A stretch of DNA of 51,181 nt. Source: Methanospirillaceae archaeon (lineage in GTDB: Archaea; Halobacteriota; Methanomicrobia; Methanomicrobiales; Methanospirillaceae). The notes beneath the pieces are model-generated. The model saw nothing but the letters and a program-made list of their open reading frames with translations, did not search any database and was not told the DNA's origin. Made by a program: the position numbers and the translations under genes. Shown here piece after piece: positions 8,690-14,594 of the stretch. The DNA lies in NCBI GenBank assembly GCA_016926505.1, contig JAFGOM010000033.1, positions 1-51,181 of the forward strand, given 5' to 3'. Numbering within the stretch: the stretch's first letter is position 1; each line of letters begins with the position of its first letter.

Positions 8690-9088
8690 ATGGAACAAAA
8701 CAACGGTGCCGAACCGTTCCGAAGACGTGGTCGCCCACGGATTCGAAGACAGATGGGCGAGTGCGGACCCTGGCGCTGTTATGCCCCCCAGTGCAATACA
8801 TGGGAGGATAACGGATCAGTGTATCTGTATCCGGAAGAGATCGAACTGTTACGACTCATCGATCTGGTTGGGATGGATCAGGAAGAGGCAGCAACAGTAC
8901 TCGGAGTCTCCCGCAAGACGGTCTGGAAAGATCTCCATGAAGCACGCCTGAAGGTGACCGATGCCCTGGTCAATGGGAAGATGATTAAAATTCATAACTG
9001 CATCATCCAGACCGAGGGATCCTGTCCGAGAGATAATAATAGATTATACGCAGAAAGCGAAACGGTGAATAAAGAAAAGGGAGAATAA
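8690..9088 (+). CDS. DUF134 family helix-turn-helix protein
   Basis: The protein has 132 residues. The N-terminus has R-R-R-G-R-P-R and a cysteine-rich stretch (C-G-P-W-R-C-Y-A-P-Q-C). A sigma-70 region 4-like helix-turn-helix follows (about 45-90: L-V-G-M-D-Q-E-E-A-A-T-V-L-G-V-S-R-K-T-V-W). DUF134 proteins commonly accompany NifX/Mrp/DUF5320 genes and are presumed regulators. The cysteines could sense FeS status. It begins four bases after the second ATPase. It is a reasonable candidate to bind the CATATGAG elements at 5757, 6579 and 9121. Confidence 0.75.
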   Translation: MEQNNGAEPFRRRGRPRIRRQMGECGPWRCYAPQCNTWEDNGSVYLYPEEIELLRLIDLVGMDQEEAATVLGVSRKTVWKDLHEARLKVTDALVNGKMIKIHNCIIQTEGSCPRDNNRLYAESETVNKEKGE

Positions 9089-9405: not shown

Positions 9406-9756
9406 TTGAAGATAGCAATCGCACGTGATGGATCAGAGGTATCAGGACATTTTGGTCATTGCGAGGCATATGCCCTGTATCAGGCAGATGACTCGATGAT
9501 ACGTCATATCGGAGATCTCGATAGTCCCGGGCATGAGCCGGGCATGCTGCCACCTTTCCTTGCTTCCCACGGAGTAAACATCATTATTGCCGGAGGAATG
9601 GGACAGAGGGCAGTAAGTCTCTTCCATGAGAATGGAATCGAGGTCATCCTCGGAGTATCAGGCAGTGTTGACAAAGCTGCACAGGATTACCAGTCAGGAC
9701 TTCTCGTCCCGGGCGGAGGAAGTATCTGCACCGAACATCAATGTAACGGTCATTAA
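9406..9756 (+). CDS. NifX/NifB-type cofactor-binding family protein (second copy)
   Basis: A 116-residue single-domain protein of the same family as the one at 6611. It has V-S-G-H-F-G-H-C-E-A-Y near residue 15 and a C-terminal C-T-E-H-Q-C-N-G-H tail that could bind metal. The start is TTG at 9406, preceded by AAGGAAGA; the first codons read L/M-K-I-A-I-A as in relatives. It lies downstream of the small DUF5320-like ORF and is followed by a clear hairpin-T terminator. Confidence 0.8.
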   Translation: MKIAIARDGSEVSGHFGHCEAYALYQADDSMIRHIGDLDSPGHEPGMLPPFLASHGVNIIIAGGMGQRAVSLFHENGIEVILGVSGSVDKAAQDYQSGLLVPGGGSICTEHQCNGH

Positions 9757-9958: not shown

Positions 9959-12139
9959 TCACGCATCATTGAGCAGATCAAGATCCCGCAAAAAGTCCAT
10001 GATAGATCGGTACCGGTCCTTCTTCTCCCATGCAAGCATTCGTGAGAGGATCGGATCAAAGGGAGCTAACGACGGATTGATACGGGATGGAAGGATGAGT
10101 TCCTCGTTTGATCGTATCGTCAGACCAACAGCAGCACTGGCCTTCTCTGAATACGGAGGAGCACCGGTCAGGAGTTCATACAGGATGGCACCCACCTGGA
10201 AAATATCAGTCTTCATCCCAACCGGGCCGTACCGTTCAGGGAACCGCTGTTCCGGGGCAAGATAGGGGGCATCTGCCTCAGCCGGGTCACTATCGCCCAC
10301 CGCAAACCCGAACTCGTTCTTTCCCCGTGCAAGCCCGGTCAGCACCGGTTCACGGTTGCTATCAAGAAGGATATTTCCCTGGTGCAGGTGATAATGCCTG
10401 ACCCCCTGCGAGTGCAGGAAAGCAATCCCTTCTGCCACCCCCCGTATCAGTTTCACGGCAAGTCTTCTTGAGACCGGTTTTTTGAACTCTGCAAATGAAT
10501 GGATCGTTTTGTTGCGAACAGCAACTCCGTCTACGTACTCCATCTCAAGATACATCACCGGTTCATACTCAAACCGGTAGATGGGGAGGATTCTTGGATG
10601 TTTCATGGCATGCCAGACTGATATCTCTTTCTCTAGAATCTCACTCGGAGCTTCCCTGTTCTGGGGAAGTTTTACCACGCGGACCTTTTCATCAGCCTTT
10701 CTCCTGACCTGGTATACCCGGGTATAGGGATCAGTTCCGATAAGAGCAAGAGGATCATACCGGTCCCGAAGCTCGTGCGGAAACCCTAAATACAACTCAT
10801 TCTCATACCCGGTCTCTTTGATTGCATCATTACCGGTGATTTTCTCTCGTGCATCTCCTTCTTCCCCGGTCTTTTTTGATCGATCTAAAACGCCTTTGGC
10901 TCCAATCATTCCTTTCTGCTTCTGCTCTTCCTTTCCGGCACTGCTGCCTTTAAACTGCGTTGCCTTTCTCCCACCGGCCTCCTCTTTTATGAATCCTTCA
11001 GCGGAAATGGATCCCTCCCTCCCCTCTTTCCCGGAAGAGAGACCGGTATCGCGGTTTCCTGATGAACCGTTCTTTTCCCGTCCGATACGCGATCCACCCC
11101 CGGATCTCCTGCTTATGAACCTTCCACTTCTGTCCCCGGTCTGAAGATGGAGAAAAACCAAAGCAGACAGGACCAGTACAACCATGATGATGATAGAATG
11201 CAGGTGAGAAAGGAGGAGAGAGACAAGTGAGGCATCAGGAGTTTTTTGCATAATAACTCCCTGACTTTTGGGATCGGTCAGATCAAGGGTGATGGTGGTT
11301 ATCGTGCCCGGCACAACCTCAGCGGTGAAACTGCGTGTAGGAAACCCGGAAAGGGTCAGGTTACCGCGATACATCCCGGGAGAAAGATCCGGAATGATGA
11401 CCGGCGTTGTTCCCCGGGATGTCTGGTTCAGGGATACCGTTGCCCCTTCCGGTGTTGTCCAGATATGTAAGGATCCTACGTCAGGCGAGGATATTCCCCC
11501 TTTCGGGATAACCGTGATCTCCTTCTCATATACCTGGGGGAACTGATGAGTCTGTGCACCCGAACGCACCTGCATCCCGAAGATGACAGGATATGTACCG
11601 GTCGCCTCAGGTGCCTGCAGCATGCAGGCAAAGAGATAGGACTTTCCTGACGTGATAGTGATTTCTTGCGGAATCAGGACAGCAGGGGGATCCATGAAAA
11701 ATCCATCCCCTGAAACGAGTACCAGTTCATAATGTTCACGCCCTTCTTCCCAGACAGCAAGGCCGCTATTGCGAAAACTGATGGTAACCGGGTATATTAC
11801 ACCCGCTTCCATGATACCAGGAATAGAGTCCCCGTCACATACCCCCTTCTGGTACCCGATTCCTGCGATCCCTTCCCCGGTCTGTGCAGAACAGGAAAGC
11901 ATACTGAGTGAAAGAACGATTCCTGCAAGAATAAAAAGCCGGAACAGACGATTCTGTACCAGAGACAGAAAAAATTCAGCCAACGGTACAACCAACCGGG
12001 AGCCCGTCAGGCAATCTGCCGGATTGCAAACCATATCACTCGTTGCTTCTCCTCCCGGTTCATACAAAAAATACCAGAGAGACCTGATACTATTCCCGCG
12101 ATAACGCATCAGGTACTGCAGGGAACCGGGATATTGCAT
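9959..12139 (-). CDS. membrane protein with PEGA domain and degenerate Ser/Thr kinase-like domain
   Basis: The protein has 726 residues. The order is a hydrophobic N-terminal segment (about 65-85), an extracellular beta-rich region (90-210), a PEGA domain (222-287, G-S-L-H-I-W-T-T-P-E-G-A), a membrane helix (315-333), a long charged linker (335-450), and a kinase-like domain (459-726). In the kinase domain Lys490, Asn589, the APE motif (628-630) and Asp645 are kept. The HRD motif reads H-Y-H (582-584), DFG reads L-T-G (600-602) and the glycine loop is lost. It is therefore probably a pseudokinase sensor. The start is uncertain; Met36 is also possible. Confidence 0.75.
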   Translation of the reverse strand: MQYPGSLQYLMRYRGNSIRSLWYFLYEPGGEATSDMVCNPADCLTGSRLVVPLAEFFLSLVQNRLFRLFILAGIVLSLSMLSCSAQTGEGIAGIGYQKGVCDGDSIPGIMEAGVIYPVTISFRNSGLAVWEEGREHYELVLVSGDGFFMDPPAVLIPQEITITSGKSYLFACMLQAPEATGTYPVIFGMQVRSGAQTHQFPQVYEKEITVIPKGGISSPDVGSLHIWTTPEGATVSLNQTSRGTTPVIIPDLSPGMYRGNLTLSGFPTRSFTAEVVPGTITTITLDLTDPKSQGVIMQKTPDASLVSLLLSHLHSIIIMVVLVLSALVFLHLQTGDRSGRFISRRSGGGSRIGREKNGSSGNRDTGLSSGKEGREGSISAEGFIKEEAGGRKATQFKGSSAGKEEQKQKGMIGAKGVLDRSKKTGEEGDAREKITGNDAIKETGYENELYLGFPHELRDRYDPLALIGTDPYTRVYQVRRKADEKVRVVKLPQNREAPSEILEKEISVWHAMKHPRILPIYRFEYEPVMYLEMEYVDGVAVRNKTIHSFAEFKKPVSRRLAVKLIRGVAEGIAFLHSQGVRHYHLHQGNILLDSNREPVLTGLARGKNEFGFAVGDSDPAEADAPYLAPEQRFPERYGPVGMKTDIFQVGAILYELLTGAPPYSEKASAAVGLTIRSNEELILPSRINPSLAPFDPILSRMLAWEKKDRYRSIMDFLRDLDLLNDA

Positions 12140-12310: not shown

Positions 12311-13366
12311 ATGGCAGATGAGATAATACAGGATGAAGAGAAACACACCCTGATCATTGCAGTTATTATCTTTATCGTAGCCGGGTTATCTTTCTGGCCT
12401 CTCGTTAGTGTTTTTATCCTTGCCTGTTCCCTTGCTGTCGTACTGATACCGATAAAACAGCGGTGCTTACACAAGCTCCCCTCCGGTCATGCTGCCATTC
12501 TGCTTACCGTTGGAGTTTTTATCACCATTGTCGGCGGGATCTTCTGTACCGTGAACGTTTTATATGCAAATCTTGATTATATGAGAGAGATAACTGCAAC
12601 AATCGGGGATGGCTTCTTTGACCTCGTTGCAGAGCTGCAGGCACATTCCTCCCTACCGGGAACCGGGGAAATTCTTAACAAAGAGACGACTCAATCAATA
12701 CTCCTGACCCTCTTTGATGCCTGCAAATATCTTATCCTTGACTTTTTTGCCAGTATCCCTGCACTTCTCATCAGCGGACTTATCTTCTTTCTGGCTCTTT
12801 TTCTGTTTGTACGCAACGGGGAAGAGATTATCAGGATAATAAGGGAAATCTTACCGGAAAAAACTACAAAGACCTTAGACCAGATCAGTACCGTAACCGT
12901 TGACACCATGTACTCGGTCTATATCGTCAACTTTCAATGCGCAATCGTAACCTTCTTCTGTGCAATCCCGTTCTTTGTGATCCTCGGTTATGGACACGTT
13001 CCATTTTATGCCATCCTTGCCGCGATTATGCAACTCATCCCCTTCCTCGGCCCCCAGATACTCATCGCCATACTCCTTATCTATGCTCTGGTAACCGGTG
13101 ACATCACCGGGTTTTTACTGCTCTGTTTTGTGGGATATCCCGCGATCTCAGGATGGATCGACTTTTACCTCAGGCCAAAACTTATGGGAGACCGGGTGGC
13201 AATTCATCCGGTTCTGATGATGATCGGGATCTTTGGCGGAATGATGCTCCTTGGACTGATCGGCATTATTTTAGGACCACTTATCATCACGCTTGTCGTA
13301 TCAGCATTCAATCTCATGATACAGACATTCCATGATATCAAAAACAGACAGAACTCTGCAGGATAG
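12311..13366 (+). CDS. AI-2E transporter (PerM/UPF0118) family membrane protein
   Basis: A 351-residue polytopic membrane protein. It has paired N-terminal helices, a soluble amphipathic segment in the middle and four or five C-terminal helices. The family signature I-M-Q-L-I-P-F-L-G-P is followed by D-F-Y-L-R-P-K-L-M-G. Members have been linked to autoinducer-2 export or Na+/H+ exchange; the substrate in methanogens is unknown. It is a single gene, convergent with cmk, and probably expressed from the T/A-rich element just upstream. Confidence 0.8.
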   Translation: MADEIIQDEEKHTLIIAVIIFIVAGLSFWPLVSVFILACSLAVVLIPIKQRCLHKLPSGHAAILLTVGVFITIVGGIFCTVNVLYANLDYMREITATIGDGFFDLVAELQAHSSLPGTGEILNKETTQSILLTLFDACKYLILDFFASIPALLISGLIFFLALFLFVRNGEEIIRIIREILPEKTTKTLDQISTVTVDTMYSVYIVNFQCAIVTFFCAIPFFVILGYGHVPFYAILAAIMQLIPFLGPQILIAILLIYALVTGDITGFLLLCFVGYPAISGWIDFYLRPKLMGDRVAIHPVLMMIGIFGGMMLLGLIGIILGPLIITLVVSAFNLMIQTFHDIKNRQNSAG

Positions 13367-13450: not shown

Positions 13451-13984
13451 TTATTTTTCAGAAAAATCGGGGATCGCTGATACTACGATGCGTGCAAGAA
13501 GATCCGGAGTGAACCGTGATGAATCGAGCACGAGATCATATAACGAGAGATCACTGATATCAATCCCGTAATACTGCCGGTACCGCTTCTCCTCACTTGC
13601 TTCCCGAGCCTTGGTCTCAAAAAGAGCCTGACTGATATCTGCGGTCTCATCCCGCTCAAAGATCCTGCCGACCCTCACCTCCCGGGGTGCTTTTAACCAT
13701 ATCTTCAGATCGGCTTTTGGAACCTTCCAGCCTGACAGGCGGCCCTCGATGATGATAGCATCTGACTGCAACCCGATCTCACGCTGCCGATCGTCAACCA
13801 TCATATCCACAGCCGGATCTTCTTCACAGTACCTGCCAAACTCGGCAAGGGTCATCCCCTTCTCTGCAGCCATCTGGCGGAACACTTCACCGGCAGATAT
13901 CAGGGGAATCGATAACTCGTGCGAGAGCGTGCGGGCAAGGGTTGTTGTTCCCGAACCAGGAAGCCCGCTTATCGTGATCCGCAT
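13451..13984 (-). CDS. cmk: archaeal cytidylate (CMP) kinase
   Basis: The protein has 177 residues and begins M-R-I-T-I-S-G-L-P-G-S-G-T-T-T with the P-loop at about 7-14. It contains the archaeal CMP-kinase region E-D-P-A-V-D-M-M-V-D-D-R-Q and the I-I-I-E-G-R-L-S-G-W strand. It phosphorylates CMP/dCMP with ATP. The frame opens at 14008, but the ATG at 13984 removes the overlap with the EMC3-like gene and starts exactly at the first strand. It is the last gene of the ribosomal protein operon. Confidence 0.88.
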   Translation of the reverse strand: MRITISGLPGSGTTTLARTLSHELSIPLISAGEVFRQMAAEKGMTLAEFGRYCEEDPAVDMMVDDRQREIGLQSDAIIIEGRLSGWKVPKADLKIWLKAPREVRVGRIFERDETADISQALFETKAREASEEKRYRQYYGIDISDLSLYDLVLDSSRFTPDLLARIVVSAIPDFSEK

Positions 13985-13988
13985 CGGA

Positions 13989-14594
13989 TCATATGCCTCC
14001 GATATCAAGCGCTTTTCTCACGACCTGTGACAGGGAGAGAGAACAGAGCATGTACCAGATGATCCATGCAGGTGCCGGACCTAAAATTGCCTCGGTGAGA
14101 TGAACCGTTCCAAAGAACGGCATGGTTATCAGGGCGTCGAAGTGATCCAGCCGGAAGATGAGCCAGAAGAAGATAGGAAGGGTAAGAATCATGATATACG
14201 CCATGGGTTTGAACTGCTGGGTACTCATCTCCATCTGGTCTTTCATCATCATCTGACGCTTTGCTTCCAGTTTCTTGACCCTTTTGTCATCCTTGGCAAG
14301 CATCGCCTCCCGGTAATCCTTCTGAAATGCCTTCATCCTCTCCTGGACCGCCTTCATTTTGGCATAATCTATCGTATACTTCTGTATTGTTGAGGAATAG
14401 ACTGCCGTGATGGTGGACAGGATGATAATGACAATATAGAAAGGGATGTGGTAGGAATCAACCAGTGGACCGAGAAACACATTGAGACCCTCTCCGATTC
14501 CCTTCCGTACCTCGGGAATACTTGCAATAAGAATCATCCCCATCGCAACGATGAGCGGTGTCATGCTCATATTCTTCGATCCGGTCTGTGCCAT
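13989..14594 (-). CDS. EMC3/TMCO1 family (DUF106) membrane insertase
   Basis: The protein has 201 residues, with an N-terminal helix, a second helix (about 50-70), a cytosolic coiled coil rich in Lys/Met (T-I-D-Y-A-K-M-K-A-V-Q onward) and two further hydrophobic segments. This is the archaeal Oxa1-superfamily protein whose homologues EMC3 and TMCO1 insert membrane proteins. Its place downstream of secY and adk is the usual archaeal order and fits a role in co-translational insertion. Confidence 0.85.
   Translation of the reverse strand: MAQTGSKNMSMTPLIVAMGMILIASIPEVRKGIGEGLNVFLGPLVDSYHIPFYIVIIILSTITAVYSSTIQKYTIDYAKMKAVQERMKAFQKDYREAMLAKDDKRVKKLEAKRQMMMKDQMEMSTQQFKPMAYIMILTLPIFFWLIFRLDHFDALITMPFFGTVHLTEAILGPAPAWIIWYMLCSLSLSQVVRKALDIGGI

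Follow-up and report, generated by a model that had tools for sequence, protein, structure and literature searches.

A candidate family of receptor-type pseudokinases in Methanospirillum and a neighbouring archaeal genus

The PK1 locus and its predicted receptor plan

The window, by which we mean the whole stretch of DNA analysed here, is 51,181 nucleotides long and constitutes contig C35 of G000, the 2.9-Mb genome of a relative of Methanospirillum (121 contigs; completeness 99.97 percent). Its reverse strand carries, at 9959..12139, an uninterrupted frame of 726 amino acids for a transmembrane pseudokinase, PK1; the start codon is uncertain, since homologues can be aligned only from about residue 53-60 onward. 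Ordinary neighbours lie on one side: a dinitrogenase iron-molybdenum cofactor-type protein (9406-9756) and a DUF134 protein (8690-9088). On the other side, a divergent AI-2E family transporter (12311..13366, forward strand; Pfam) is followed by cytidylate kinase (cmk; 13451..14008, reverse strand) and an EMC3/TMCO1-like membrane protein (13989..14594, reverse strand), both identified by Pfam and locus comparison and both useful as syntenic markers. None of the genes near PK1 in the window names a pathway. A role as a defence kinase was considered and rejected: the PADLOC/NCBIfam list (MAD6, PD-T4-6, PglW, and others) consists of general kinase-domain matches, and the NCBIfam scores fall far under their cut-offs, as with 93.2 bits for the anti-phage kinase MAD6 (NF047741; equivalog cut-off 460). 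No defence genes were seen beside PK1 in the open reading frame lists, where the Pfam search covered part of the neighbours.

PK1 is predicted to be a single-pass receptor. Two hydrophobic stretches bracket its outer part: residues 65-83 (11891..11947, reverse strand, as are all PK1 features below; hydropathy 2.13), a predicted N-terminal signal peptide or anchor, and residues 314-332 (11144..11200; hydropathy 2.52), a predicted transmembrane helix that corresponds to helix 229-250 of the structure model (residues 313-334). Between them lie an FW-like immunoglobulin (Ig) domain (residues ~95-211; 11507..11857) and a PEGA domain (residues 222-288; 11276..11476), the latter matched by PF08308 at E 1.1e-7 and 32 bits (cut-off 20.8). 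A linker of Gly, Ser, and charged residues, assigned to the cytoplasm and recognised by composition (residues 337-450; 10790..11131), leads into the pseudokinase domain (residues 451-724; 9968..10789), which is defined by Pfam profile and by structure model and matches. The Pkinase match (PF00069, residues 464-710; E 2.2e-24, 86.7 bits, cut-off 31.7) is far from chance. Hydropathy and models agree with a plan of FW and PEGA domains outside, one transmembrane helix, the linker, and the kinase domain inside, a topology that is a prediction throughout.

The sequence-only reading had proposed a preserved kinase fold, and the predicted structure bears this out. An AlphaFold2 (AF2) model from an 11-row alignment has an intact fold (pLDDT 83.5, pTM 0.85), with pLDDT below 50 in residues 606-623, part of the activation loop. 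The best match among solved structures is Mycobacterium tuberculosis PknB (5u94; Z 24.0, rmsd 2.9, 239 residues aligned, 26 percent identity). Profile score and two-lobed fold both place PK1 in the protein kinase superfamily.

The model of the outer part (12 rows) reaches a pLDDT of 78.6 with a pTM of 0.51, so that the relative placing of its parts is unreliable. Its first domain has the Ig-like fold of FW domains, as in ILRUN (6vhi; Z 12.2, rmsd 2.2, 105 residues aligned) and NBR1 (Z 10.6). The profile for NBR1-type Ig domains (PF16158) matches residues 120-195 at 18.8 bits, under its cut-off of 28, and the outer part, when searched against PDB sequences, had no match below E 0.2. FW domains are named for four tryptophans (PMC9582228); a single one is invariant across the 12 rows aligned. 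Among the open reading frames examined, the full outer region occurs only on family members, and the PEGA part is also present on active kinases. Separately, 22 of the 108 genomes of the taxonomic family have FW/NBR1-type Ig domains (Pfam, E 0.001) in large open frames, with up to 7 in a genome.

Catalytic residues in the family and in active kinases

The comparison of catalytic residues started from 111 distinct kinase-domain sequences: 31 in which the HRD aspartate is lost and 80 with HxD. Thinning by identity dropped 3 and 32 rows, respectively, and left 76 rows, 28 of the family and 48 of active kinases. The sequences were chosen because they scored best against the family profile or against the window protein, with some neighbours added, and the active set is a selection rather than a census. 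The label "pseudo" was assigned by the HRD residue; because rows were grouped in this manner, the results for the DFG motif and the glycine loop are the independent ones.

Both catalytic aspartates are missing from PK1, as the sequence-only reading had claimed. In the HRD position stands HYH (residues 582-584; 10388..10396), with H584 replacing the aspartate; the aspartate is lost in all 28 family rows (His in 21, Leu in 7) and kept in all 48 active rows. In the DFG position stand G602-L603-A604 (10328..10336), and the aspartate column holds glycine in 28/28 family rows versus aspartate in 48/48 active ones. The losses are fixed in the homologues, and the outcome that the sequence-only reading had set as a refutation, an outlier among homologues with intact HRD and DFG, did not arise. 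The lysine of HRDxK follows the same division (0/28 versus 48/48). The glycine loop, previously described as not recognisable, can be identified in degenerate form at residues 468-476 (10712..10738), reading G468-T-D470-P-Y-T-R-V475-Y. Both central glycines are missing from it, and the column of the second, occupied by D470, holds Asp in 27 family rows and Tyr in 1, versus Gly in all 48 active rows.

Other elements of the fold are retained, and here the earlier claims for K490, N589, the APE motif, and D645 stand in the alignment. The beta3 lysine, K490 (10670..10672), is Lys in 24 and Arg in 4 of the 28 family rows and Lys in 48 active rows; the alpha-C glutamate, E505 (10625..10627), is kept in 21/28 and in all 48, respectively. 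The alignment also recovers the APE motif (residues 628-630; 10250..10258) and the F-helix aspartate D645 (10205..10207; 28/28 in the family), and P629, E630, D645, and R709 are invariant in family and active rows alike. N589 is kept in PK1 but is no family trait, with Asn in 3/28 family rows versus 48/48 active rows. The whole family has lost the catalytic base, the metal ligand of DFG, two glycines of the loop, and the lysine of HRDxK, and the residues that keep the fold remain. The family also has residues of its own: among 28 rows, D470 occurs in 27, E524 in 28, R581 in 26, Y583 in 26, G602 in 28, and G641 in 27.

The register of the DFG motif required correction. It had been read as L600-T601-G602; MAFFT alignments and HMMER comparison with PDB kinases put the DFG aspartate on G602. 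We adopt G602-L603-A604 because N589 and G602 are 13 residues apart, the same Asn-Asp spacing as in an active kinase of the same genome. An alternative register, with a two-residue deletion of D-F and retention of the G, is possible. Whichever register applies, Asp and Glu are absent between residues 598 and 606. A column table in which D-W of the active DWG rows became an insert and their glycine fell under G602 was discarded, as this arrangement arises artificially when the profile is made from pseudokinases; the full alignment is gapless there.

Measured against an active Hanks-type Ser/Thr kinase, PK1 lacks the HRD aspartate, the DFG aspartate, and the glycine-rich loop, and it has the beta3 Lys and alpha-C Glu pair (K490, E505). 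Pseudokinases are defined by the lack of at least one of the beta3 Lys, the HRD Asp, and the DFG Asp (PMC12599244). PK1 lacks two of these three and is a pseudokinase by this usual residue definition. Phosphotransfer by PK1 would not be expected, because the base and the DFG aspartate are missing and an acidic residue sits in the glycine loop; judging from the same residues, binding of Mg-ATP by PK1 is probably poor or absent.

The retained K490 and E505 count against the non-catalytic, partner-binding role that we favour for PK1 (below), in that a nucleotide pocket may remain. Metal-free ATP binding through this pair could serve as a conformational switch, which would make PK1 a nucleotide sensor. 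The retention of Lys in 24 and Glu in 21 of 28 rows accords with such a role, as does the metal-independent ATP/GTP binding suggested for EphB6 (PMC7586955). However, Asp occupies the second loop glycine in 27/28 rows, and Lys is changed to Arg in 4/28 and Glu to Gln in 4/28 rows, all of them PK3; we regard nucleotide sensing as doubtful. The residues of the replacing motif are in turn conserved (R581, Y583, G602, D470, and E524, at the frequencies given above), as might be expected of an enzyme that performs other chemistry on the kinase fold in the manner of SelO or SidJ. This reading is highly improbable, since the canonical metal ligands are missing (DFG Asp 0/28, Asn 3/28, HRD Asp 0/28) and SelO and SidJ retain the DFG aspartate (PMC12599244).

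Gene row, origin, and selection

The pseudokinase family is present in 13 of the 108 genomes of the taxonomic family: the window's own and all 12 of genus g12 (Methanospirillum). An outlier or a sequencing error was rejected as an explanation, since each of the 12 searched genomes of Methanospirillum has relatives with these losses. In a search of 41 genomes, full-length matches to PK1 outside G000 came only from G011 (M. stamsii) and G023 (which we take to be M. hungatei JF-1), both of g12.

The relatives are mostly arranged as a gene row, PK1-PK2(-PK3), next to cmk, which is also the location of PK1 in the window. G011 and G023 each have a row of three, with PK1 of 680/681, PK2 of 823/831, and PK3 of 845/829 amino acids, followed by a TPR protein. 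Counted by locus in the 12 g12 genomes, PK1 is found in 11, PK2 in 12, and PK3 in 9, where the G106 contig starts within PK2 and those of G104 and G105 stop ahead of the PK3 position; in G103 the locus is complete and PK3 is missing from it. In the rows of G100, G107, and G098, PK3 is far more diverged (HNL in L077, HYL in L079, and HFL in L084, respectively), and PK1 and PK2 retain HYH. The window genome has PK1 alone, without PK2 or PK3. EMC3 and cmk adjoin PK1 in all 9 loci with a visible flank, the window included, and this shared placement makes the window gene the positional counterpart of PK1. What lies between cmk and PK1 differs among the loci. G011, G023, G099, G101, and G103 have a PaaK-like gene there, and G102 has none. 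In the window, G100, and G107, the place is taken by the AI-2E transporter, which is oriented head to head with PK1; this divergent pairing is conserved across genera.

The PK2 and PK3 frames share 4 bases at 7 of 9 junctions, with open reading frame starts taken mechanically, which suggests coupled translation, and a TPR protein follows PK3 in 6 of 9 loci (G011, G023, G099, G101, G102, and G107). Both features would suit a part in envelope or secretion assembly, in which the pseudokinase domain, like EssB/YukC, would hold a membrane complex together and sense nothing. The beta-rich outer domains of the PK1 model are consistent with it, and a transmembrane pseudokinase in such a role is known (EssB/YukC; PMC12599244). 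However, the row contains no secretion gene and the window has PK1 alone, and the varying gene between cmk and PK1 leaves a SecY/EMC3/cmk operon link unsupported. An assembly role is unlikely, if worth keeping in view.

Profile score alone was tried as a means of delimiting the family and rejected: the weakest full-length PK3 scores 207 bits, and there are active kinases with scores as high as 239 bits within the order and 263 bits in the phylum sample. Only motif and tree tell the pseudokinase family from active kinases. By profile score, the nearest active kinases belong to families f8 and f9 and to three Methanomicrobiales genomes (G188, G179, and G029), at 226-263 bits, and those inspected retain HxD and D-F/W-G. 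In an unrooted kinase tree of the 76 rows, built without the HRD and DFG stretches, the 28 family rows form one side of a branch (support 100/99; 100 percent of 200 bootstrap trees). On these sequences, the pseudokinase family is of single origin. The window gene groups with PK1 (support 86/79); a placement outside the rest of the family also withstands the test (p-AU 0.093), and more than one order of duplication and loss would fit.

Selection on the kinase part of PK1 is purifying, in line with the earlier proposal that the domain is kept for function. Its dN/dS (Nei-Gojobori) is 0.033 for G023/M59, 0.061 for G023/L045 (dS 1.8, near saturation), and 0.071 for G100/G107 (dS 1.2), lower in each of the three pairs than that of the N-terminal part. 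The other kinase parts give 0.108 for PK3 and 0.246 and 0.132 for PK2, and the controls give 0.076 for cmk and 0.637, over few changes, for fdhD. The PK1 kinase domain is constrained about as tightly as cmk, and that of PK2 less so. On these values, a decaying relic was rejected for PK1. For the family, the strongly diverged PK3 copies of G098, G100, and G107 (HFL, HNL, and HYL) are what a decaying kinase relic might look like, yet the frames are open, PK1 dN/dS is 0.03-0.07, and the replacing motif and the locus are conserved; decay is barely credible. Readings of PK1 as a degenerate copy, an outlier, or a relic are disfavoured, and the best reading is that of a conserved, membrane-bound, non-catalytic kinase family.

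A receptor-type reading and its place among known systems

The best explanation is that PK1 belongs to a family of receptor-type pseudokinases specific to one lineage, which comprises Methanospirillum and the neighbouring genus from which the window comes. We think it rather likely that PK1 acts by binding partners, without phosphate transfer. The FW-like Ig and PEGA domains would be displayed outside and joined by one transmembrane helix and a flexible linker to the folded kinase domain inside. An event outside the cell would alter how the receptor clusters or which state it adopts, and the pseudokinase domain would then scaffold a partner or tune it allosterically by its shape. In Methanospirillum, the candidate partners are the row-mates PK2 and PK3; in G000 they are the one canonical kinase, its HTH-FHA proteins, and a PP2C phosphatase.

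G000 has three Pkinase matches: PK1, the canonical kinase on contig C23 (HLD, DWG), and a 1421-amino acid protein on contig C79. The canonical kinase has two HTH-FHA-type neighbours, the second FHA-type protein named by eye, and a PP2C. At L036:116-6600, an HTH-FHA protein, a PP2C, an acyl-CoA synthetase-like gene, an FHA-like protein, and a canonical membrane kinase stand together, and in G023 (L039) an HTH-FHA-type protein, recognised by eye, lies directly ahead of a canonical kinase. By eye, the 1421-amino acid protein of C79 (L037:4782-9047) adjoins a PP2C-like gene and has two kinase-like stretches; in the second, the catalytic aspartate is apparently missing, and this protein is perhaps another half-dead kinase.

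A more specific scheme, which we offer tentatively, is that PK1, PK2, and PK3 form a non-catalytic, three-part membrane receptor complex in Methanospirillum: three dead kinases with their own outer domains, encoded by neighbouring and partly coupled genes, in which D470, E524, R581, Y583, and G602 would replace the catalytic machinery for mutual docking or switching. Since the window has PK1 alone, such a complex cannot be general; the window lineage would keep the PK1 part in a simpler form.

Several known systems share parts of this predicted plan. PknB is a membrane kinase with an outer repeat part that keeps HRD and DFG. Bacterial PASTA kinases of its type, which are receptor Ser/Thr kinases, are like PK1 in kinase fold; in contrast, the outer part of PK1 is FW-like plus PEGA and its kinase domain is C-terminal, and PK1 scores 86.3 bits with the Stk1/PknB model (NF033483), far from the equivalog cut-off of 450. 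Other methanogens have active kinases (e.g., L015, L095, and L103) that combine PEGA stretches and kinase in one protein, as PK1 does, and that are among its nearest sequence relatives, with up to 263 bits against the family profile; unlike PK1, the rows checked all have HxD and D-F/W-G, and none has a full FW-like domain. Animal receptor pseudokinases such as HER3 pair an outer sensor with one transmembrane helix and a dead kinase inside. EphB6, another animal receptor pseudokinase (PMC7586955), has a plan like that predicted for PK1; both EphB6 and HER3 are distant from it in sequence and outer domains, and only the plan is alike. Bacterial pseudokinases (ActPs1-3, GLW, CP1, DYD, and DLHK) have lost catalytic residues, like PK1, and are often membrane-bound, as is predicted for PK1, and EssB/YukC is a transmembrane pseudokinase (PMC12599244 for both). 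Among the motifs in Table 1 of that paper, none equals the HYHLxxGx with G-L/F-A of the PK1 family, and its accessible text describes no FW-PEGA outer part for bacterial pseudokinases.

The non-subscription literature on archaeal, Methanospirillum, and Euryarchaeota pseudokinases, screened by title or abstract start among the papers listed, does not describe the PK1 family, and searches for Methanospirillum with PEGA returned unrelated papers only. Pseudokinases from every domain of life were reportedly found by Kwon and others (2019), so that their occurrence in archaea may not in itself be new.

What is known of pseudokinase biology comes chiefly from eukaryotes and, to a lesser degree, from bacteria. 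The FW-like outer domain of the PK1 family would bring into an archaeal receptor a fold most familiar from NBR1, an autophagy receptor. With active relatives, a three-paralogue row, and a single origin visible in related genomes, a conserved receptor-type family in archaea would make the transition from a kinase to a non-catalytic signalling part testable in one small lineage.
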